In this document: positions 41,615-51,831 of the stretch, piece by piece | Layout of the letters: every line of letters begins with the position of its first letter | Position numbering within the stretch: position 1 is the stretch's first letter | Source: Palaeococcus ferrophilus DSM 13482 | GTDB taxonomy: Archaea; Methanobacteriota_B; Thermococci; Thermococcales; Thermococcaceae | Length of the DNA stretch: 64,000 nt | Reading direction: 5' to 3' | NCBI RefSeq assembly: GCF_000966265.1 | Contig: NZ_LANF01000019.1 | Location: forward strand, 186,001-250,000 | Program-made: the position numbers and the translations under genes | The notes under the pieces: model-generated | What the model saw: only the letters and a program-made list of their open reading frames with translations | Database searches by the model: none | Told to the model about the DNA's origin: nothing

Positions 41615-43771
41615 TCAAGCCTTCAGGAACTTCGCGTTGATAGCCACTATCACCGTGCTCATGCTCATCAGCAGTGCTCCGAGGGCCGGACTGAGCAGTA
41701 TCCCGTAGGAGTAGAGGGCTCCAGCGGCGAGAGGGATTGCGAAGGAGTTATAGCCAGTCGCCCACGCTAAATTCTGCACCATCTTCCCGTAGGTCTTCCT
41801 CGCGAGGTGTACCGCCGTTATCACATCCCTTGGGTCGTTCTTGACGAGGATTATGTCCGCGCTCTCTATTGCAACGTCGGTTCCAGCTCCGATGGCTATG
41901 CCCACATCGGCCTGTATCAAAGCCGGAGCATCGTTTATGCCGTCGCCGACCATTGCCGTTACCAACCCCTGGCTCTGGAGCTCCTTGACCTTCTCCGACT
42001 TCTGGTGGGGCAGAACCTCCGCAAAGAAGCCGTCCAGACCTAGTTCTTCAGCCACCCACTTCGCCACCTTGGCGTTGTCGCCGGTAAGCATGTAGGCCTT
42101 TATCCCCATCTCGTGGAGCCTCTTGACGGCTTCCCTTGACTCCGGCCTTATCCTGTCCGCCAGGGCCATCGCTCCGGCGAGCTTTCCATCAACCACCAGG
42201 AAAACCACCGTCTTTCCCTGCTCCAAAACCCTGTTCACGCGCTCGTCCTCTTTCCAGAGCCCGTTCTCCTTCAGGAAACCGGGGCTCACAACGAGGACTT
42301 CCCTTCCGTTGATAACTCCCTGAACGCCCTTGCCGGGAAGGACCTTTGACTCCTTCACGTCATAGGGCTTAAGGCCGAGCTCCCTGGCCTTTTCAACTAC
42401 TCCCTGCGCTATCGGGTGGCTTGAATGCGATTCAAGCGCCGCGGCGTACTTCAGGATTTCCTCCTCACTAAGCTCGTCCAGCGGAATAACGTCCGTGACC
42501 TCGAACCTGCCCTCGGTCAGCGTCCCCGTCTTGTCGAAGACAACAACTTCAACGTCCTTAGCCCTCTCAAAGGCCTCCCTGTTCCTGATGAGGATCCCCT
42601 TCTCGGCGGAGATGGAAGTAGAGACCGAAACGACCAGCGGAACGGCCAGTCCTAAGGCATGGGGACACGTTATGACCATTACCGTCACCATTCTTTCCAG
42701 GGCAAAGACGAAGGGCTTTCCGAGGTAGAGCCACGTCCCGAGCGTTATACTGCCGGCTGTAATCGCTATCAGAGTGAGGTAGAATGCGGCCCTGTTGGCC
42801 AAATCCTGGGTTTTAGAGCGCGTCTCCTGGGCCTGTCTCACCAGTTCGACGACCTGCATGAGGTAGGTGTCCTTCCCCGTCTTCTCTATCCTGACCTTTA
42901 TTGCGCCTTCGAGGTTTATCGAGCCGCCTATAACGGTATCACCGGGCTTTTTGTAGACGGGCTTCGACTCACCGGTGAGCATAGCCTCGTTCACGCTCGT
43001 TTCACCCTCGACGATGACGCCATCGGAGGGTATCTTCTCTCCGGGCTTGACGAGGACAATGTCACCTTTCTTCAGCTCGCTGACCGGGACGTCCTTTATT
43101 CCCTCCGGCGTCACGAGGTGGGCTTCCGTCGGCATGAGCTTTATGAGCTCCTCCAGCGCCCTCGAAGCACCGAGGACGGAGCGCATCTCGATGTAGTGCC
43201 CCACTAGCATGATGTCAATAAGCGTTGCCAGCTCCCAGTAGAAGGTCTTGCCCGGTACTCCGAAGGTCACCGCGACGCTGTAAGAGAAGGCAACCGTGAT
43301 TGCCAGCCCTATCAGCGTCATCATTCCCGGGTTCCTCTTCCTCAGCTCGTCCTGCATCCCCTTGAGGAAAGGCCAGCCGCCGTAGAAGTAGACCACCGCC
43401 GAGAGGCCGAAGAGAACGTAGTGATCCCCGGGAAAGCTCAGCTCGAAGCCGAAGAAGTTCTGTATCAGCGGCGAGAGAAGGAGTATCGGAATCGTGAGTA
43501 TCGAGGAAACGATGAACCTCCTCTTGAAGTCCTCCATCATCATCCTGTGGTGCTCCGCGTGGGAGTGCTTGTGCTCGCCATGTCCCCTGTGTTCGTGCTC
43601 CATGCCCCCATGTCCGGCGTGTTCTTCCATTCCTCCGCTTCCGTGGGCATGTTCGTGGTTTCCGGCCATCTGCATCTCATGCCCCTCGTGCTCCATATGT
43701 TCCATCTCAGAACCATCTCCATCATCGTGCATGTGTGCGTGCTCACGGTGCACGCTGTCTTCTTCTTTCAT
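41615..43771 (-). CDS. copB: P1B-type copper/silver ATPase CopB
   Basis: A 718-residue heavy-metal pump. Residues 1-75 form a His/Met-rich cytosolic tail with many HxH, GHE and GHGG units in place of HMA domains. The membrane metal site is CPH (TCPHALGLAVPLV), which defines the CopB-like P1B-3 class for Cu(II)/Cu(I)/Ag(I). MLTGES, the phosphorylated Asp in DKTGTLTEG and GDGINDAPAL are intact. A GGGTGATGTGTT sequence precedes the ATG. The promoter contains TTTGTACA-N4-AAG, partly like the motif before the two other Met-rich genes. It exports surplus copper. Confidence 0.93.
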   Translation of the reverse strand: MKEEDSVHREHAHMHDDGDGSEMEHMEHEGHEMQMAGNHEHAHGSGGMEEHAGHGGMEHEHRGHGEHKHSHAEHHRMMMEDFKRRFIVSSILTIPILLLSPLIQNFFGFELSFPGDHYVLFGLSAVVYFYGGWPFLKGMQDELRKRNPGMMTLIGLAITVAFSYSVAVTFGVPGKTFYWELATLIDIMLVGHYIEMRSVLGASRALEELIKLMPTEAHLVTPEGIKDVPVSELKKGDIVLVKPGEKIPSDGVIVEGETSVNEAMLTGESKPVYKKPGDTVIGGSINLEGAIKVRIEKTGKDTYLMQVVELVRQAQETRSKTQDLANRAAFYLTLIAITAGSITLGTWLYLGKPFVFALERMVTVMVITCPHALGLAVPLVVSVSTSISAEKGILIRNREAFERAKDVEVVVFDKTGTLTEGRFEVTDVIPLDELSEEEILKYAAALESHSSHPIAQGVVEKARELGLKPYDVKESKVLPGKGVQGVINGREVLVVSPGFLKENGLWKEDERVNRVLEQGKTVVFLVVDGKLAGAMALADRIRPESREAVKRLHEMGIKAYMLTGDNAKVAKWVAEELGLDGFFAEVLPHQKSEKVKELQSQGLVTAMVGDGINDAPALIQADVGIAIGAGTDVAIESADIILVKNDPRDVITAVHLARKTYGKMVQNLAWATGYNSFAIPLAAGALYSYGILLSPALGALLMSMSTVIVAINAKFLKA

Positions 43772-43880: not shown

Positions 43881-44447
43881 CTACCCCTTCATCATCTCCT
43901 CGATTTCCTTCAGCCTCTTTCCAGGTTCGAGCTCCTTCTCGGCCGAGGATGTCATCAGACCTTCCGCCATCTCTACCGTCTCGGCATCGAACTCTCCGGT
44001 GAGTATGCTCTCGCTCGTGAGGTCTATCATCGTGCTGAGGGCCTCCTCAAGGCTCTCGACCTTCCCCATTGCCTTCTCAAACTCCACCTGCATCTTTGCA
44101 ACATCCTCCGCCCCCGGCCCTTCGGCTATGCTTTTGACAACGTCCTTGCTGAACCCTATGAACTCGGCCGAGACCTTAACGAGCTCCCTCTGTATCTCGG
44201 CCTCCTCCATGAGGAGAAGCAGCCTCTTTGCCTGCTTTATCCTCTGCTCCAGAGTCAGATACTTTACAGCGCTTCTCTTGAGAAGGGCCTCGTCCCCGAG
44301 TTTGGCAGCTTCCTTTCCCTGGAGAAAAATCTTGCGCTTCAGGTTCTCAAGGTTGTTTATGTACTGCTTCAGAGCCATCTTGGCCTTTCTCATCCGAATC
44401 TTCCGCTCTATCTCCTTCTCCTCCTTGGATTTCCAGAGCCTCACCAT
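43881..44447 (-). CDS. ESCRT-III-like coiled-coil protein (cluster gene 8)
   Basis: A 188-residue all-helical protein. A basic N-terminal pair of long helices (KEEKEIERKIRMRKAKMALKQ, then LQGKEAAKLGDEALLKRSAVKYLTLEQRIKQAKRLLLLMEEAE) is followed by shorter acidic helices (KMQVEFEKAMGKVESLEEALSTMIDLTSESI). This charge layout and the order of elements resemble ESCRT-III/CHMP and CdvB proteins. The last residues, GKRLKEIEEMMKG, look like a weak MIM1 motif that could bind the MIT-like domain of the AAA ATPase two genes upstream. Start MVRLWKSK follows GGGGGT. Homology is inferred from architecture, not from a search. Confidence 0.55.
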   Translation of the reverse strand: MVRLWKSKEEKEIERKIRMRKAKMALKQYINNLENLKRKIFLQGKEAAKLGDEALLKRSAVKYLTLEQRIKQAKRLLLLMEEAEIQRELVKVSAEFIGFSKDVVKSIAEGPGAEDVAKMQVEFEKAMGKVESLEEALSTMIDLTSESILTGEFDAETVEMAEGLMTSSAEKELEPGKRLKEIEEMMKG

Positions 44448-44452
44448 TAACA

Positions 44453-45190
44453 CTACCCCCGTTTGAACACGATTACCGTGATGTTGTCTTCGGCGACTTT
44501 CAAAGCCTCCCCAACGAGCCGCTCCGCAGCCTCCTTCGGGCCACCCTGGGAGGCGAGTTCCGCTATCTCCCCGTCATCTAGGGTATCGTGAAGGCCGTCC
44601 GTGCTCAGGAGCAGGACGTCGGTCTCTTCAATTTCCCACACGTACGTATCAACCGCCAGCTCTATTCCCAGGGCCTTCGTCACGACGTGTCTCATCGGAT
44701 GGGAGCGAACCTCCTCCTCCCATATAACGCCCCTTTCAAGCAGTTCCCCCACGATGGAGTGGTCCCTCGTCCTTGAGATCACCTTACCATCCCTTATCAG
44801 GTAGGCCCTGCTGTCGCCGGTGTTCGCTATCACTGCCGTGTCCTCCCTCACGAAGGCAGCCACCATCGTCGTGCCGGTCTTTCCTGGCTCTGGGGACATC
44901 TCCATTATCCGGCGGTGTGCGTCCTTGTAGGCCGTTTTCAGGAGCTCTTCAACTTCTCTCAGTGCAAACCCCTCGGTGTATTCCCTCTCAAACGTCTCCC
45001 GGAGCGTCTCCACCGCCGCCTTCGAGGCTATTTCTCCTCCCTCATGCCCCCCGAGGCCGTCCGCGACGGCAAGGAGGTACGCATTTCCAAGGGGCAGTAT
45101 CAGAAGCGCGTCCTCGTTTTTCTCCCTCGGCCCCGGGTGTGAGATGCCCCACGCCCTATTCCCAACACCCGTTGAGATGACCCTGCTCAT
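44453..45190 (-). CDS. PP2C-family protein phosphatase (cluster gene 7)
   Basis: A 245-residue metal-dependent Ser/Thr phosphatase. Motifs in order: GPREKNEDALLI near residue 25 (metal Asp of motif 1), VADGLGGHEGGEIAS (motif 2), GTTMVAAFV, NTGDSRAYLIRDGKV, STDGLHDTLDD and EDNITVIVFKRG. All metal-binding Asp residues are present. It should reverse phosphorylation by the kinase encoded two genes upstream. The ATG overlaps the AAA ATPase stop by 4 nt and the ribosome binding site GGAGGAG lies within that gene. The longer upstream reading is less likely. Confidence 0.92.
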   Translation of the reverse strand: MSRVISTGVGNRAWGISHPGPREKNEDALLILPLGNAYLLAVADGLGGHEGGEIASKAAVETLRETFEREYTEGFALREVEELLKTAYKDAHRRIMEMSPEPGKTGTTMVAAFVREDTAVIANTGDSRAYLIRDGKVISRTRDHSIVGELLERGVIWEEEVRSHPMRHVVTKALGIELAVDTYVWEIEETDVLLLSTDGLHDTLDDGEIAELASQGGPKEAAERLVGEALKVAEDNITVIVFKRG

Positions 45191-46368
45191 CCCCCGAACT
45201 CCTCCGCCCACTTCTCATACCTCTCGATGTCCCTCTTTGTTAACGGAGACTTGATCTTCCTGAACGCCTCCTCGAAGTCCCTCATCTCAAGCGGACGCGT
45301 TCTTAATGACCTCTTTCTCAGTTCCTCCAGGGGGAGGGAGGCGAGCTTGTGCAGATCCCTGTTTTCCTCGCGTATCATGTTCCACACCGCCTCCTGGCAG
45401 AGATTTCTCACGTCCCTGCCCGAGTACAGCCTTCTGACGCTCTCTTCGGCAATCGCGTCTAAATCGAGTCTCGAAACGTCCAGGCCCTTCGTATGTATCC
45501 GGACTATCGCCTTGACGGCCTCTTTATCGGGCAGGGGCACGTAGATCCTCTTGGGGAAGCGCGAGAGTACCGCCTCGTCTAGGTCCCACGGTGTGTTAGT
45601 CGCCGCTAGCGTGAGGACTAGCCTCTCACTCTCCCCTTCGTGGAACCCCTCAAGCTCGGTGAGGAGTGTGGAGAGCATCCTCCTCGTTGCCTCGCTTGTG
45701 TCGTTTGAGCGCCTCGTGGTGAGGGCGTCTATCTCGTCGAGGAACACTATGCTGGGTGCCTTCTCCCTCGCCACCTCGTAGAGTGCGGAGATTATCTTAC
45801 TCGACTCACCAAAGTACTTGCTGAGGACGCTTGACGCCTTAACGTTGAAGAACGTCGCGTCCAGGCTTCCAGCGGCGGCCGAAGCTAGGAGGGTCTTCCC
45901 GGTTCCTGGCGGCCCAAAGAGAAGGATGCCCTTCCAGGGCTGGATTGAGGCGGGCTTTCTAAGGGCCGAGATGACCACGGTCTCCATCATGAGGAGCTTG
46001 ACGTTATCAAGGCCCCCTATGTCGTCCCAGGTTACACGGGACTTCGACACAAGCCCCAGGACGTACTCCCTGAACTGGTCCTCTTCTTCCTTCTCCTGGG
46101 TAGTGCTCTTTCCTTCGGCCCCGACGATGGCTTTCCTGCCGTACTCCCCCCTCTCAATCTGACCGGCTACATCCTCCCACTTCTTGGCCTTCTTCAGGTA
46201 CAGCTCCCCGTTGTAGGGCACGTGTTTGGCCAGCTGTCTGAGTATGGAGGCACAGCGGAGGGCGCTCTTCTTAGCCCTCTCCATGTTCCCAGCGGCAACG
46301 GCCTTCTCGAACTCCTTTTTGGCCCTCTCGAACTCCGTGAGGAGGGGCCCCGAGAGGTCAACAGGCAT
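45187..46368 (-). CDS. Vps4/CdvC-type AAA ATPase with N-terminal MIT-like domain (cluster gene 6)
   Basis: A 393-residue AAA ATPase. Residues about 8-75 form a three-helix bundle (FERAKKEFEKAVAAGNMERAKKSA... YLKKAKKWEDVAGQIE) like the MIT domain that recruits Vps4 to ESCRT-III. A linker leads to the AAA core: VTWDDIGGLDNVKLLMMETV, Walker A GPPGTGKT, Walker B IVFLDEIDAL, TNTPWDLDEAVLSRFPKRIY. The final DIERYEKWAEEFGG matches the C-terminal helix signature of the Vps4/katanin/spastin clade, which separates it from Cdc48/PAN ATPases. It probably disassembles the three ESCRT-III-like polymers encoded nearby. GGAGGTG sets the start, 2 nt after the kinase stop. Confidence 0.85.
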   Translation of the reverse strand: MPVDLSGPLLTEFERAKKEFEKAVAAGNMERAKKSALRCASILRQLAKHVPYNGELYLKKAKKWEDVAGQIERGEYGRKAIVGAEGKSTTQEKEEEDQFREYVLGLVSKSRVTWDDIGGLDNVKLLMMETVVISALRKPASIQPWKGILLFGPPGTGKTLLASAAAGSLDATFFNVKASSVLSKYFGESSKIISALYEVAREKAPSIVFLDEIDALTTRRSNDTSEATRRMLSTLLTELEGFHEGESERLVLTLAATNTPWDLDEAVLSRFPKRIYVPLPDKEAVKAIVRIHTKGLDVSRLDLDAIAEESVRRLYSGRDVRNLCQEAVWNMIREENRDLHKLASLPLEELRKRSLRTRPLEMRDFEEAFRKIKSPLTKRDIERYEKWAEEFGG

Positions 46369-46370
46369 TT

Positions 46371-48086
46371 TCACACCTCCTTAAAGCCAAGTTTTACCCT
46401 GTGGACTATTATCTCGGCCTTCTCTATGAGTTCCTCGGGAACCTCCAGGCCGTTCTCAAGGCGCAGTTTCAGCTGCTCCCTCAGCTTCATAAGCTCCCTC
46501 CTTGTCTCGCCCCTTGCGTAGTGAACCAAGTCATCGGCGTACTTGAGCGCGTTCACGAGGTCGTTGAGCTTTAGATACAGGAGAAACAGCTCTCCGGCAA
46601 AGTACGCACTCCTCGAAAGGTCCCTAACCGAAACGCTCCTGCCGAGTTTTTCGCGGTAGCTGGTGCCGAGGAACTCTGCTATGTCCTTCTGGAGTTCTTC
46701 AACGCTCCCGTAGCGCTCCTCCTTTTTCTTCGCGAGGCACTTCATTACTACATGCTCAAGGGGCTTTGCTTCCGGGTTAAGCTGGCTCGGAGGAACGGGT
46801 TCCTCAAGGGTTATCTTTGAGGCCACCTCGACGAAGTCCTCGCCCTCGAAGGGTGGCCTTCCCGTGAGAAGCTCGTAGAGCACCGCTCCAATCTGCCATA
46901 CGTCGGTCCTCTCGTCGGTGCCTCCGAAGCGGGAGCTTATCTGTTCCGGAGCGGCGTAGAGCGGCGTGAAGCTCACGGCCTGGGTGGTTCTGCTCTCCTT
47001 GAGGAGCTTGCTCAGCCCCCAGTCGCTCACCTTTGCCCTGCCGTTCTTGAGGAGGATGTTGCTGGGCTTGAGGTCGCGGTGGATGATACCCTTGGAGTGG
47101 GCGTACTTTATGCCCTCTGCAACGTCGAAGATGATTCTCGCGGCCCTCTCCGGATTTAGGGGCTTCTCGAGCTTGGCCAGCGAACTCTCACAGTACTCCA
47201 TTTCCAAATAGGGAACTGGGAAGATGTTGTAGTCGTAGAGCTCGACTATGTTGGGGTGGCTGAGGAGGGACCAGTTCCGCACTTCCCGGAGGAATGCCTT
47301 TCCCCCCGCTTCAGTCAGGCTTATGGGTATCTTGAGGGCCACGACGCTTCCGTCTTCCCTCTCCGCCCTGTAAACCCTCGCAAAGCCGCCCTCACCTATT
47401 AGCTCGACGTTCTTATACCTCGCAAAGAGCTCCTCCAGCGGGGTGCGAGGCCCTTCCGCTGAATTTTTCGAACCTCCTTGTGCCGGAACGGGGACTGGAA
47501 GGGGAGTTTTGGGCTCCACCTTTGGCCTCTCGATTATCTCAGTGCTCACCTTAACTTTAGCACTCACAATTCCGGAGCGGGCGACAACCTTGGCGCTGAC
47601 CTTTCCGGACCTCCTCGGGACCGCCCTCACGCTCTGGGAGACGTATTCACCTGGCCTCACACTCTTGAAGTAAATCCTCGTGGAGCTGAGGTCGAAGTGC
47701 CTTGAGAGGTCGCTGAGGTTTATCTCAACGTTTATCGTCCCCCTGAGCAGGTTCCTGAAGCCGACGTTGAGGGGTATCTCCTCGCCGGCGTGAACCTTCG
47801 GCGGAAGCTCGACTATCACTGACTTACGGAGAAGCTCCTTCATATCCTCTCTCGGAACCGGCGGAGCCGGTGGAACGGGTTTAGGATAGCGATACTTGTA
47901 CCTTTTACTGGACTTCGAAACGTCTTTGAGCAGGTGCTTTATCAGGTGTCCAATCCACATGGCTATCACGATGAAAATTATAAACCCCGCGGCCCTCCCG
48001 AAGATGACGGAGATCAGCACTATAACTATGAAGAGCTTGACTATCCCTTCCAGGATGTCGTCATCGAACATATGGCCCATGTGCAC
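46371..48086 (-). CDS. membrane-anchored eukaryote-type Ser/Thr protein kinase (cluster gene 5)
   Basis: A 571-residue protein. One or two N-terminal membrane segments (about residues 12-50) precede an Ig-like beta-sandwich (about 80-195, VIVELPPKVHAGEEIPLNVGFRNLL) and a Pro-rich linker. The kinase domain runs from about 222: IGEGGFARVYRA, VALKIP (ATP Lys), IIHRDLKPSNILL, SDWGLSKLL (DWG instead of DFG), YAAPEQ and TDVWQIGAVLYELLTG. A helical C-terminus follows. All catalytic residues are present. It heads the second transcription unit, with the TATA box at 48128-48137. The start is a GTG after GGAGGG. Likely targets are the coiled-coil proteins of the cluster. Confidence 0.9.
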   Translation of the reverse strand: MHMGHMFDDDILEGIVKLFIVIVLISVIFGRAAGFIIFIVIAMWIGHLIKHLLKDVSKSSKRYKYRYPKPVPPAPPVPREDMKELLRKSVIVELPPKVHAGEEIPLNVGFRNLLRGTINVEINLSDLSRHFDLSSTRIYFKSVRPGEYVSQSVRAVPRRSGKVSAKVVARSGIVSAKVKVSTEIIERPKVEPKTPLPVPVPAQGGSKNSAEGPRTPLEELFARYKNVELIGEGGFARVYRAEREDGSVVALKIPISLTEAGGKAFLREVRNWSLLSHPNIVELYDYNIFPVPYLEMEYCESSLAKLEKPLNPERAARIIFDVAEGIKYAHSKGIIHRDLKPSNILLKNGRAKVSDWGLSKLLKESRTTQAVSFTPLYAAPEQISSRFGGTDERTDVWQIGAVLYELLTGRPPFEGEDFVEVASKITLEEPVPPSQLNPEAKPLEHVVMKCLAKKKEERYGSVEELQKDIAEFLGTSYREKLGRSVSVRDLSRSAYFAGELFLLYLKLNDLVNALKYADDLVHYARGETRRELMKLREQLKLRLENGLEVPEELIEKAEIIVHRVKLGFKEV

Positions 48087-48127
48087 GTCAATCCCTCCGT
48101 TCTCCCATGGTCACCATCTCTGGCAAA

Positions 48128-48137
48128 CATTTAACCC
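48128..48137 (-). promoter_or_regulatory. internal promoter before the kinase gene
   Basis: Minus strand AAAAAGGGTTAAATGTTT has the form of a BRE/TATA about 42-51 nt before the kinase GTG. It lies in a 135-nt gap, so genes 5-8 of the cluster can be transcribed separately from genes 1-4. Confidence 0.5.
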
Positions 48138-48221
48138 TTTTTGGTGTCGTTTTGAAAATCTGCAGGAGGTTATCTTTCATTTAGGGCAAATATTGAAGGG
48201 AGGTTAGCAACAAAGTGGAAG

Positions 48222-48827
48222 TCACTCCGTAACGACTTCCTCTGTCTCCTCCTTCTCCCCCGCCACTTTCTCGGCAGCTTTCTCCGGCTCCAGCTCGCCC
48301 TCCTTCACCGCCTCTATCGTCTTCATTATCTCAGCGAGCTCTTCGTCCTCCTCGAACTCAACGCCCGCACCTAGAGCCTGGTCGGTGTACTCGAGCATCG
48401 TGTTCAGGTTCTCGTTGAGGTTCTGGGCATCGAGCCTCATGCTCACGAGGTTCTTCTCCAGCTCCTCGGGGGACATCTTTCTCAGGAGTTCCCACGTGGG
48501 CGTGCCCCTGAGGATGGCCTCGTTCTCCTTGATTATCAGCAGGTTGCTGACGAGCATTAGCTGTTTGTTGAGCTGGGCGTGGGTGTTCTGGAGGCTCTTC
48601 TTGCGCTGGTTGAGGGTTTTTATCTTCGTAGCTATCGTGAGTTCCTCGCTTTTGCTTCTGGCATTCTTGGCCCTCTCGAAGAGGAGGGCTATTTCTCTGT
48701 CTATCTCAGCTATCTCGTTCTCGATCTTCCCTATCTGCATGTCAAGCTTAACCTGGTTCTCCCTGAGCTTGTCAATCGGTATGTCGAGCGGGTTCTTCTT
48801 TCCAAAAAACCTTGAAAGGAGGCCCAT
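48222..48827 (-). CDS. ESCRT-III-like protein, CHMP4/Snf7-type layout (cluster gene 4)
   Basis: A 201-residue helical protein starting MGLLSRFFGKKNP, a short amphipathic segment like that of Snf7. Then comes a long basic hairpin (KLRENQVKLDMQIGKIENEI; TIATKIKTLNQRKKSLQNTH; QLNKQLMLVSNLLIIKENEAIL), then MSPEELEKNLVSMRLDAQNLNENLNTMLEY. An acidic stretch, GAGVEFEEDEELAEIMKTIE, recalls the FGEEFDEDELMAELEEL region of CHMP4. The tail is Glu-rich. The order and charge switch match ESCRT-III subunits closely. The ATG overlaps the stop of the preceding gene (TGATG). Confidence 0.6.
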   Translation of the reverse strand: MGLLSRFFGKKNPLDIPIDKLRENQVKLDMQIGKIENEIAEIDREIALLFERAKNARSKSEELTIATKIKTLNQRKKSLQNTHAQLNKQLMLVSNLLIIKENEAILRGTPTWELLRKMSPEELEKNLVSMRLDAQNLNENLNTMLEYTDQALGAGVEFEEDEELAEIMKTIEAVKEGELEPEKAAEKVAGEKEETEEVVTE

Positions 48828-49423
48828 CACAGCTCCTCCTCCGTATCCTTCTCGATCTTAGGCGAGGCTATCTCGGAGGATACCTCCTCAGCGTCTGCCT
48901 CCCCTGTCTCGACCTTGGCCCAGGCTTCCATGAGCTCCCTCTCGGTCTGGTCTTCCGTCGCCTCAAACTCGGCCACGTCCATCTCGAAGACCCTGTTGAG
49001 GCCCTCAACCATCTCATCGAACTCCCTGCCGTCGAGACTCACCCTGACGAGCACGCTTTCAAGCTGCTCCGGCTCGACCTTGGAGAGCTTGTCCCAGAGG
49101 CCTATCTTCCTCAACTCCTTCTCGTACTTCTTGACCACTATCAGGTTCTTGATGAAGGTGTACTGCTTCTGGGCGGTGGTGAAGTCCCTCAGCTTGAGCT
49201 TCTGCTCCATGTCGAGGCTCTTAATTTCTTGGGCGAGCATCTTCTTCTTGAGGACGTCCGCCCCGATGCCCTCCTGAAAAAGCTGCTTCTTTTTCTTCTC
49301 GATGCGCTCGATTTCCTTCTTCGCCCTCTCAAGCCTGTTCCTCAGGCGTATCTCCTCCTCCTGAAGCTCCCTGAGGGAGAGCTTTTCAATCGGGTTCTTC
49401 CTAAACCTGTCGAGTATCCCCAT
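48827..49423 (-). CDS. ESCRT-III-like protein (cluster gene 3)
   Basis: A 198-residue paralogue-like partner of the following gene. It begins MGILDRFRKNPIEKLS and continues with a Lys/Arg/Glu-rich long hairpin: RNRLERAKKEIERIEKKKKQL, then LKKKMLAQEIKSLDMEQKLKLRD. VEPEQLESVLVRVSLDGREFDEMVEGLNRVFEMDV corresponds to the third/fourth helices. An acidic C-terminal third (EATEDQTERELMEAWAKVETGEADAEEVSSEI) follows. The AxEIKxL phrase in the second helix is typical of Snf7-like proteins. The start is set by AGGTGAT. It is 10 nt from the large coiled-coil gene and overlaps the next by 1 nt. Confidence 0.58.
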   Translation of the reverse strand: MGILDRFRKNPIEKLSLRELQEEEIRLRNRLERAKKEIERIEKKKKQLFQEGIGADVLKKKMLAQEIKSLDMEQKLKLRDFTTAQKQYTFIKNLIVVKKYEKELRKIGLWDKLSKVEPEQLESVLVRVSLDGREFDEMVEGLNRVFEMDVAEFEATEDQTERELMEAWAKVETGEADAEEVSSEIASPKIEKDTEEEL

Positions 49424-49433
49424 CACAATCACC

Positions 49434-51257
49434 TCACTTCCTTATCAGCACGAGTCCAAACCCGTCTATGTATTTCACCACATGGCCTTCCCGGCCGAGT
49501 TCATAGAACGCCCTCCTCACCTGCTCCTCGTCCCCGCATTCGAGGCACTCGCTGAGGGGGAGGTAGTCCCTGCCCTCAAGCTTCTCCCTGACGCACTCCC
49601 TCACCTTGGCATAGACCTCCTCGTCCAGTTCAAGGCTCACCAGTGGAGCTAGAGCCCCGGCGTAGCGGTCGTTGGGGTTGTGGATCACCTCTCCCGTCTC
49701 GGTGTCGAGGAGTATGAGCGAGACGTTCTCGGAGTAGAAGTTCCTGTGGAAGTCCTCGGATGAGACGTACCTCCTGATGCGCTCCTCAAAGCCGAGGGGT
49801 GAAGCTACCACGAGCACGGTTCTTCCCCCGCCAGGGGATTCTCTCGCCCCCACAAGGTGTACGTTCAGCTCCGCCAGGGTCAGCGGGTCAGTATCCATAC
49901 CTAACTCTGCGAGCCTCTCCACGCGGGTAAGGTAAATCGCCTTTATGAGGATCCTCTCCTTTCTTCCGAGGAGCTTCCTCTCCTTCAGGCGGATCTCCAG
50001 GTATCTGTTCTCAGGCAGGTTCCAGAGGGCCGTTTCGTCGAGCTTTCCCCTGAAGCCTGAAACATCGACCCCCTTCTTTTCCTCAACGTCCTCAACGGAG
50101 TACCGCTTTCCAAGGAGGCTTATCTTATCCCTGAACTTGCTCTTCACCCTGCCGATGAAGTTGAGCTCCTGAATTCTCGCCTCCTCCCTCACAACGAGCC
50201 TGCTGCCCTTCTCCACCTTGCCCGAGATGGCGAGCACTTCCTCTATCTTCCTCCTAAGTTCCTCGTCCCTCTGTGAGACCTCGATTTCCCTCTTCCTGAG
50301 CTCCATCTCCTTCTGCTTGAGCTCAAGCTCCCTTCTCCGTATCCTTTCTTCGAGAAGCTTCGCCTCGCGCAGGGCCTCTTCCCTGGCCTTTGCAAGCTCT
50401 TCCTCCAGTTTTTCCCTCAGCTCCTCGTCCTTGAGTTCGAGCAACCTTTTAGTCAGCTCCTCCTTCTCACGCTCAAACTTTCTGATCAGCTCCTCCTTCT
50501 CCCTGCGGAGCCTCTCTATCTCGGCCAAGTTTGACGTGGAGAGCTCCTCCTCAAGCTTCCTGCGCTCACCCTCGAAGAACTCGACCATCTCGGCCATTCT
50601 CCTCTTCAGCTCTCTAACCCGGGTCTCGTAGGTCTCCCTCACGGCTTCGACTTCCCCGGCCTTTTCCCTCTCCCACTCCTCCATGAGCGTCCGGAACCAG
50701 CCGTATTTGCTCGCCTCGTTTATTGCCGCATCAATCTTCTCGCGGTATCTCCTCCAGGTTCTCTTGAGGTGGTACCTGAGGGGGAGCTTTATCTCCGGGT
50801 CTTCGAGCTGCTCCTCTATCCATCTGTCCATGCCGAGGTAGTAGGTTTTGAGCAGCTGGAGAACCTCTTCATCCCTGCGGTAGAGCTTTCCGAGGATGTC
50901 CTCCTTCGTGGTTATTTCGAAAACGTTGTACTTCAGTATCTCATCTATCAGTCCTATTTCGCGCTCCGAAAAGCGCTCGCTGGCAGGAGAGAACTCCTCC
51001 CCCTTCCTCCAGAAGCTCCACGCGAGAACCGCCAGGGCGGCCTCAAATTTTGCCCGGAAGGCCGTATCAACATCGTTCAGGAAATCGCCGCATTCCCCCT
51101 CCAGATAGCGTGAATACGATTCAAGAACCCGCTCCCAGAGCTCCTTTCTCGTATCAAAGCTCTCCACGAGGATATCTCGCCCCTGCCTGATGACCCTCTC
51201 CGCAGGTCTCAGAAGAGTTCTCACGCAGTCGGGATTACCTTCGTTGAATATCACCAT
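49434..51257 (-). CDS. large coiled-coil protein (cluster gene 2)
   Basis: A 607-residue protein I do not recognise. Residues 1-205 are helical with aromatic residues (FEAALAVLAWSFWRKGEEF, LKRTWRRYREKIDAAINEASKYGWF). About 205-350 is a continuous coiled coil (EREKEELTKRLLELKDEELREKLEEELAKAREEAL). The C-terminal 250 residues are alpha/beta (YLEIRLKERKLLGRKERILIKAIYL; VLVVASPLGFEERIRRYVS; SLILLDTETGEVIHNPNDRYAGAL) and end in a winged-helix-like segment (EEQVRRAFYELGREGHVVKYIDGFGLVLIRK). No signal or membrane segment. It may scaffold or position the ESCRT-like proteins encoded just downstream. GAGGTGATACC precedes the ATG. Confidence 0.6.
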   Translation of the reverse strand: MVIFNEGNPDCVRTLLRPAERVIRQGRDILVESFDTRKELWERVLESYSRYLEGECGDFLNDVDTAFRAKFEAALAVLAWSFWRKGEEFSPASERFSEREIGLIDEILKYNVFEITTKEDILGKLYRRDEEVLQLLKTYYLGMDRWIEEQLEDPEIKLPLRYHLKRTWRRYREKIDAAINEASKYGWFRTLMEEWEREKAGEVEAVRETYETRVRELKRRMAEMVEFFEGERRKLEEELSTSNLAEIERLRREKEELIRKFEREKEELTKRLLELKDEELREKLEEELAKAREEALREAKLLEERIRRRELELKQKEMELRKREIEVSQRDEELRRKIEEVLAISGKVEKGSRLVVREEARIQELNFIGRVKSKFRDKISLLGKRYSVEDVEEKKGVDVSGFRGKLDETALWNLPENRYLEIRLKERKLLGRKERILIKAIYLTRVERLAELGMDTDPLTLAELNVHLVGARESPGGGRTVLVVASPLGFEERIRRYVSSEDFHRNFYSENVSLILLDTETGEVIHNPNDRYAGALAPLVSLELDEEVYAKVRECVREKLEGRDYLPLSECLECGDEEQVRRAFYELGREGHVVKYIDGFGLVLIRK

Positions 51258-51266
51258 GGTATCACC

Positions 51267-51785
51267 TCACAGGAGCAGGGAAAGCTCCCTCTCGAGTTTT
51301 TTTGCCATATCCTCCACCGCGCTGCCGTATCCTTCAAGGCTGATGTTAACGGCCGTTCCTCCATCTTCCTCTTCAACGGACACCGTTATCTCCAGCCTGC
51401 CCTTCTTCGTGTAGGCCCTGTACCGTGATACGCTACCCTCGCCGGAAACGTAATATGCGCCGAACTTGGAGAGGACGTACCTGAGGAGCTTGGCCACGAT
51501 TGCCGGCTCTTCGCTGCTCGTGTGGCGTATTTCAACTACTTTGGGGGTTACCTTTGAGCCGATATCCTCCGGCTCGACTCTGTACACCCTAACTTTGCCC
51601 TCCGTCGGCGGGTCGAGCTTTGAGAGGAGTTCCTCCATGAGCTTGGACACATCGGAGGCCTCAACCATGAAGGAGATGCCCTTCAGCTTGGACACCCTGG
51701 CCCGATTTGACCACTTGTCAATTAGGTATTCAACGCGCTTTCGCTCAGCATCGTTATCGTAAACCACCACGAACAGGTGTGTCAC
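51267..51785 (-). CDS. conserved hypothetical alpha/beta protein, first gene of the ESCRT-like cluster
   Basis: A 172-residue protein of unknown function. The N-terminal half has strand/helix alternation (HLFVVVYDNDAERKRVEYLIDKW, then ISFMVEASDVSKLMEELLSKL). The C-terminal half is a curved-sheet-like domain (RYRAYTKKGRLEITVSVEEEDGGTAVNISLEGYG) ending in an amphipathic helix, which resembles small START/SRPBCC-like or pleckstrin-like folds only in outline. The GTG start is chosen because GAGGTGA lies 5 nt upstream. It lies directly behind the promoter of unit 1 and 9 nt before the large coiled-coil gene. Confidence 0.6.
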   Translation of the reverse strand: MTHLFVVVYDNDAERKRVEYLIDKWSNRARVSKLKGISFMVEASDVSKLMEELLSKLDPPTEGKVRVYRVEPEDIGSKVTPKVVEIRHTSSEEPAIVAKLLRYVLSKFGAYYVSGEGSVSRYRAYTKKGRLEITVSVEEEDGGTAVNISLEGYGSAVEDMAKKLERELSLLL

Positions 51786-51831
51786 GGTCTTCACCTCTGC
51801 ACTTCCTTTGGATTGTGTTGGGCATCGGGAG

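Follow-up and report, generated by a model that had tools for sequence, protein, structure and literature searches.

How the endosomal sorting complexes required for transport (ESCRT) are regulated outside eukaryotes is largely unknown, and a locus of the archaeon Palaeococcus ferrophilus DSM 13482 raises the question of whether an ESCRT machine may possess a phosphorylation switch of its own. The locus lies within a window of 64,000 nucleotides, the whole stretch of DNA that was analysed (contig NZ_LANF01000019.1, positions 186,001 to 250,000 of the forward strand), in which the genes of a membrane Ser/Thr kinase and a PP2C phosphatase flank that of a Vps4-type AAA ATPase at positions 44453-48086. 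These three genes belong to a euryarchaeal ESCRT locus of eight genes, all on the minus strand and running from 51794 to 43881. We lean, on balance, towards the reading that this is a locus of the published "Main" type whose kinase and phosphatase act as a dedicated reversible switch on ESCRT, with membrane remodelling as the output. In the 5' to 3' order of the genes, the features are as follows:

51267..51794, minus strand: 175-amino-acid protein, which fits the published arCOG08177 (Cas2-like and TBP/helix-grip domains) by place and size
49434..51257, minus strand: 607-amino-acid coiled-coil protein, which fits the published arCOG09748
48827..49432, minus strand: SnfA, 201 amino acids, a helical ESCRT-III-like candidate
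48222..48830, minus strand: SnfB, 202 amino acids, a helical ESCRT-III-like candidate, overlapping SnfA by 4 nucleotides
48087..48221, minus strand: spacer of 135 nucleotides between SnfB and the kinase
46371..48086, minus strand: membrane Hanks-type Ser/Thr kinase (Pfam Pkinase and intact motifs)
45187..46368, minus strand: Vps4-type AAA ATPase (Pfam AAA and Vps4_C)
44453..45190, minus strand: PP2C phosphatase (Pfam PP2C_2 and intact motifs)
43881..44453, minus strand: SnfC, 190 amino acids, ESCRT-III-like (sub-threshold Snf7 match and model)

That the kinase and phosphatase work for the ESCRT locus is suggested most strongly, among the new evidence, by their co-occurrence with it across genomes. 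The 2.2-Mb Palaeococcus genome encodes no full-length Hanks-type kinase besides this one and yields no PP2C_2 match other than the phosphatase. A SnfC profile matches 30 of the 115 genomes of the phylum, all of them Thermococcaceae; tblastn searches with follow-up place the kinase in the locus in all 30 and the PP2C in the locus in 29, the exception being a contig of 4.2 kb. Five genomes with a compact locus, beyond the window's own, encode a single kinase and a single PP2C, each within the locus, and five family members without SnfC contain neither a Hanks-type kinase nor a PP2C. Many close relatives have no SnfC altogether. Thermococcaceae keep the order of the genes, which Dehalococcoidia (Chloroflexota) retain in part, and the PP2C is found inside the cluster in G036 and at its far end in G066. 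The preliminary description of this DNA had taken the pair to be dedicated, and the distribution bears this out for the family and for the locus-free relatives tested.

The three central genes are contiguous and tightly coupled, exactly as had been described from the sequence. The kinase gene ends with ..GGAGGTGTGA, followed by AA and the ATG of Vps4, leaving a gap of 2 nucleotides, and the Shine-Dalgarno sequence of Vps4 sits within the end of the kinase gene; an alternative GTG start 6 nucleotides upstream would turn the gap into a 4-nucleotide overlap. Vps4 and PP2C overlap by 4 nucleotides (ATGA) with GGAGGAG upstream, a Shine-Dalgarno-like sequence inside the end of the Vps4 gene, and the SnfC gene starts immediately after PP2C. 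These junctions are not due to chance, since each recurs in close orthologues. Because the 135-nucleotide spacer parts SnfB from the kinase, the kinase, Vps4, PP2C and SnfC genes may form a transcription unit of their own. A terminator-like hairpin is located at 48240-48217 in the region of this spacer; the count of hairpins is no higher than in shuffled sequences.

The kinase (Pfam Pkinase, E = 5.7e-48) carries its catalytic domain at residues 218-470, with K252, E268, HRD at 336-338, DWG at 355-357, and APE at 379-381. The Gly-loop, Lys, Glu, HRD, Asn, and APE are all intact and the single change is the Phe-to-Trp replacement in DFG, so far as motifs can tell the features of an active Hanks-type Ser/Thr kinase. 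The catalytic residues, DWG included, are invariant across the aligned orthologues; DWG occurs in 86 of the 88 family kinases, accompanied by APE and, with few exceptions, by HRD, and the remaining two have DFG. The alignments thus mark DWG as a family trait and no peculiarity of this kinase. CK2 is an active kinase with Trp in place of Phe at the same position. Ahead of the kinase domain, two hydrophobic helices (10-29 and 31-57) form a helical hairpin anchor, followed by an Ig-like β-sandwich at residues 90-185 in the predicted model, in which the C-terminal helical tail (462-566) folds with high confidence into a five-helix domain; the mean predicted local distance difference test score of the model is 72.6 and only ~60 in the hairpin. 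The anchor, the Ig-like domain and the DWG motif had all been noted in the preliminary description, and all three are confirmed. The Ig-like and kinase domains are predicted to share one side of the membrane because no membrane span lies between them, and this side is read as the cytosol because positive charges follow the second helix. An extracellular sensor role of the Ig-like domain was rejected for this kinase on the same absence of an intervening span. PknB and StkP are the closest solved relatives in sequence and fold searches; the fold search used the whole model and returned kinases only, so that its matches concern the kinase domain.

The ATPase matches AAA (E = 2.2e-38) and Vps4_C (E = 1.1e-8) in Pfam and contains the Walker A motif GPPGTGKT, the Walker B motif FLDEID, and the Arg finger SRF. 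MIT-like helices can be read from the sequence at its N-terminus, where Pfam gives no MIT match, and in a phylogenetic tree the protein falls within the Vps4 clade, away from Cdc48. The phosphatase (PP2C_2, E = 2.3e-17) contains the motifs RExNED, VADGLGGHEGG, GTT, NTGDSRAY, DHS, STDGL, and DNITV; the metal-binding Asp motifs (NED, DGxGG, DGL, and DN) are invariant in the alignment, and by its motifs the protein is predicted to be an active phosphatase.

SnfC matches Snf7 at E = 5.7e-5, under the Pfam cut-off. In the AlphaFold2 model its helices (10-52, 55-109, 115-152, 157-171, and 177-189) follow the ESCRT-III order, and the best fold matches in the PDB are CdvB and CdvB2 of S. islandicus (probability 1.00-0.85, E at least 0.011), with CdvB at the top (probability 1.00, E 0.011); we regard these matches between predicted and solved folds as supportive rather than decisive. 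A PDB profile search with the SnfC alignment gave no ESCRT-III match. The C-terminal helix contains the motif E..P..RLKEI, kept in Thermococcaceae, which in our own reading resembles the MIT-interacting motif 1 (MIM1); the Geoglobus version, D..I..RLREV, is nearer to the MIM1 consensus. A published survey (PMC8970359) detected no interaction domains in the Cdv proteins of euryarchaea. SnfA is homologous to SnfB by profile comparison (99.3%, E = 5e-20), the profile link between SnfB and SnfC is weak (31.6%), and SnfA has no Snf7 match in Pfam. A second, weak Snf7 match (E = 0.017) in a 430-amino-acid frame elsewhere in the genome (L002, G000:C19:8103-8249) is probably a chance coiled coil. The 175-amino-acid protein is the conserved first gene of compact loci, and the 607-amino-acid protein has a direct orthologue in P. 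pacificus (67.6%). By synteny with the loci of PMC10936438, the two genes fit arCOG08177 and arCOG09748 in size, layout, and place; Pfam gives no meaningful match for either.

The preliminary description knew of no counterpart to such a writer and eraser pair, which is outdated. In Makarova et al. (2024; PMC10936438), a "Main" euryarchaeal Vps4 clade that includes Thermococcales is defined, its loci containing ESCRT-III, arCOG09748, and arCOG08177, and many genomes adding a membrane Ser/Thr kinase with transmembrane, Ig-like, and PCI-like regions together with a Ser/Thr phosphatase. The same paper describes arCOG09748 as a helical, coiled-coil protein with a C-terminal winged helix, ESCRT-II/CdvB-like, with an AlphaFold2 model from P. 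pacificus, a member of the window's own genus. It infers phosphorylation to be key to the euryarchaeal Main systems, for which it suggests a role in vesicle formation or protein sorting. The arrangement of kinase, Vps4, and PP2C in ESCRT loci is therefore already known. The window shares with the Main clade Vps4, ESCRT-III, the membrane kinase, and the phosphatase, and has two companion genes that fit by place and size; we see no essential difference between them, and the make-up of the locus agrees with a place of the window's Vps4 in the published clade. The kinase has the transmembrane and Ig-like domains of the published type, with a five-helix domain at the C-terminus where that type is PCI-like, and is accompanied by a phosphatase. 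Relative to the available text of that paper, the sole status of the kinase and PP2C, their absence from locus-free relatives, the DWG motif, the cytosolic Ig-like domain, and the bacterial copies described below are additions. A 2021 review states that Thermococcales lack ESCRT-III, and the locus corrects review statements of this kind on Thermococcales or Euryarchaeota. Our literature search found no report of phosphorylation of Thermococcus ESCRT.

The switch that we favour would work as follows. The hairpin would tether the kinase to the membrane, where the cytosolic Ig-like and C-terminal helical domains may dock ESCRT-III or the winged-helix/coiled-coil adaptor. Phosphorylation of the ESCRT-III tails or of the adaptor would alter the assembly of the polymer or the recruitment of Vps4 through its MIT-like region; Vps4 would strip the ESCRT-III polymer with ATP, and PP2C would reset the state. 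The output would be membrane remodelling, such as vesicle budding or envelope repair, and not primarily cell division. This scheme draws on the gene content, the coupling, the intact active sites, the exclusive co-occurrence, and the CdvB-like predicted fold of SnfC, as read from sequences and models, from which we infer the substrates, the direction of the switch, and the physiological output. Eukaryotic ESCRT-III is controlled by phosphorylation, by Aurora B on CHMP4C and by ULK3, which is an analogy only: the eukaryotic kinases are shared cell-cycle regulators, whereas the kinase here is encoded inside the ESCRT locus. If the scheme is true, a kinase/phosphatase-controlled ESCRT exists in archaea, and in Chloroflexota, and phosphorylation control of ESCRT is no eukaryotic invention. 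With a single kinase and a single phosphatase encoded in the locus, and with genetically tractable Thermococcus species in the same group, the system lends itself to clean testing.

Several points weigh against such a switch. A review mentions as unpublished that disruption of any Vps4-like gene in T. kodakarensis left vesicle production unchanged; this weakens the case for a vesicle output, the review being silent on whether this type of Vps4 was included. No substrate or phosphosite of the kinase is known, and the window's genome encodes no FHA reader. The preliminary description had named orthologous clusters lacking the pair as evidence against its reading, and such clusters occur only in part: every locus examined with enough contig has the kinase, and two distant Halobacteriota genomes have the kinase with no PP2C anywhere in their assemblies, so that the eraser is not always needed.

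Other readings of the pair differ in what the kinase would act on. It might mark cargo, with phosphorylated membrane proteins sorted into vesicles by ESCRT and rescued by PP2C. Phosphorylated cargo is proposed for FHA-type ESCRT systems in PMC10936438, an FHA protein adjoins a related locus of Dehalococcoidia, and the enlarged loci described below hold many kinases whose N-terminal regions differ, a variety that would suit a range of cargo or signals. The published idea nevertheless concerns FHA loci, the window's locus is not of this type, and its genome has no FHA domain and one kinase only, which leaves cargo marking unlikely. Alternatively, the two enzymes could be a general signalling switch with targets throughout the cell, co-transcribed with ESCRT only through a shared envelope-stress response. 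They are the sole enzymes of their kind in the genome, and the bacterial pairs PrkC/PrpC and PknB/PstP, which serve many targets, offer a parallel: a membrane Hanks-type kinase is encoded beside its own PP2C, and the window's kinase domain is nearest to PknB in sequence and fold, PknB and StkP being its closest solved relatives. Unlike the bacterial pairs, the window's kinase has a DWG motif, a hairpin anchor, and no PASTA domain that we could find, and the genes flank an ESCRT AAA ATPase. A general switch would not be expected to vanish from relatives without the ESCRT locus, as both genes do, nor does it sit easily with the conserved gene order; we consider it quite improbable.

A cell-division machine of the Cdv kind under the control of a cell-cycle kinase would account for the CdvB-like model of SnfC and the presence of Vps4, the two features shared with the CdvA, CdvB, and CdvC system of Sulfolobales. 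The preliminary description had compared the locus with Cdv operons, and here the comparison does not hold. Kinase, PP2C, and other companions stand in the locus, and the genome has three FtsZ/tubulin-family genes, whereas Cdv systems are recognised by division without FtsZ; a Cdv operon was rejected on these grounds. Thaumarchaeota also keep an FtsZ, and FtsZ alone is not decisive against Cdv. Pfam gives no CdvA match for any of the eight genes in the locus, no dedicated CdvA profile search having been made. Many close relatives live without SnfC, and the division of the organism probably uses FtsZ. Published accounts give systems of this kind a part in forming vesicles or in sorting, and PMC10936438 defines the Main type by arCOG09748 and arCOG08177, not by CdvA. 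A division role is very improbable in light of these points. That the kinase is a pseudokinase scaffold was also considered, as DWG is unusual among bacterial-type kinases and could be a sign of lost activity. We rejected this reading as scarcely credible, the other catalytic residues being invariant in orthologues and DWG a family trait, and with CK2 as an active precedent.

Beyond the switch favoured above, it is conceivable, and we propose it tentatively, that the locus represents a portable ESCRT module, switched by phosphorylation, whose kinase and PP2C serve nothing else, which is tuned by multiplied receptor kinases with differing ecto-domains, and which works in bacteria too; the last part is suggested because a homologous locus adjoins ftsZ and mraZ in Dehalococcoidia. 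The SnfC profile scan matched three single-cell genomes of this class, and SnfC relatives of some kind occur in 5 of its 393 genomes. Two of the three single-cell genomes contain a locus with Vps4, SnfA, SnfB, a receptor kinase, and a homologue of the 607-amino-acid protein:

L140:14041-16459 and L128:1432-14247 (G119, contig C107), and L129 (G118): Main-type ESCRT locus of Dehalococcoidia

The identities to the window's proteins are 55% for Vps4, about 50-51% for SnfA, 41-43% for SnfB, and 48% in the kinase domain. The locus of G119 also includes a homologue of the 175-amino-acid protein (28.6%, E = 2e-21) and a PP2C, and shares contig C107 with mraZ, rsmH, ftsA, and ftsZ; more Snf, MIT-AAA, kinase, and PP2C genes come after it. 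In the tree, the archaeal Vps4 group takes in the bacterial Vps4 (100/100 for the group as a whole), which stands as sister to the Thermococcaceae type (84/64). A transfer from archaea is the likely origin of the locus. Contamination or a chimeric assembly is unlikely because three single-cell genomes carry the loci and bacterial genes lie on the same contigs. The locus was unexpected because ESCRT is reported absent from bacteria: PMC10936438 finds ESCRT homologues not identifiable there. Ravi et al. describe transfer of Vps4-like ATPases to bacteria and the existence of bacterial Snf7-family proteins. Our literature search found no paper reporting a Dehalococcoidia ESCRT locus.

A second block in the same single-cell genomes (L062:6898-11656, L063:9121-11656, L064:2-2914) encodes a kinase, a PP2C, SnfC, and an MIT-AAA ATPase; its SnfC is 50% identical to that of Thermococcaceae, and in L063 the kinase gene is a remnant only (87% against L130 over some 110 codons). 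Further Dehalococcoidia loci (L137, L138, and L139) contain relatives of Snf, of MIT-AAA, and of the kinase or its tail, alongside an SPFH/band-7 protein (L137:3289-4275) and an FHA protein (L139:542-1246).

Directly downstream of the window's locus lies a P-type (copper-type) ATPase gene (41615-43771), which is kept beside compact loci and was not seen at the enlarged loci of Thermococcaceae. Enlarged loci (L039, L040-L041, L042-L043, L044, and L107-L124) contain several receptor kinases, tandem Vps4 genes, and membrane PP2Cs with PEGA domains. In G021, G022, G033, G036, and others, the several kinases measure about 500-1,580 amino acids, with N-termini of β-propeller, PEGA, and sometimes macro domains, often ahead of a membrane span, and some of the PP2Cs carry a membrane span and PEGA. 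Such large N-terminal regions are found only in kinases of enlarged loci and are probably extracellular; the enlarged loci suggest that receptors have diversified while the output machine stayed fixed. A contig (L057) binned in an "Archaeoglobus sp." metagenome-assembled genome contains a locus 76-84% identical to those of Thermococcaceae, which groups with G022 and reflects either transfer or misbinning. Several genomes with enlarged loci have a second Vps4 type. In other Thermococcaceae (L045-L054), a third type, a solo Vps4-type ATPase that is 44-48% identical, stands with no ESCRT-III, kinase, or PP2C gene nearby; the solo Vps4 proteins of Thermococcales form a separate group in our tree, in agreement with the published solo clade.

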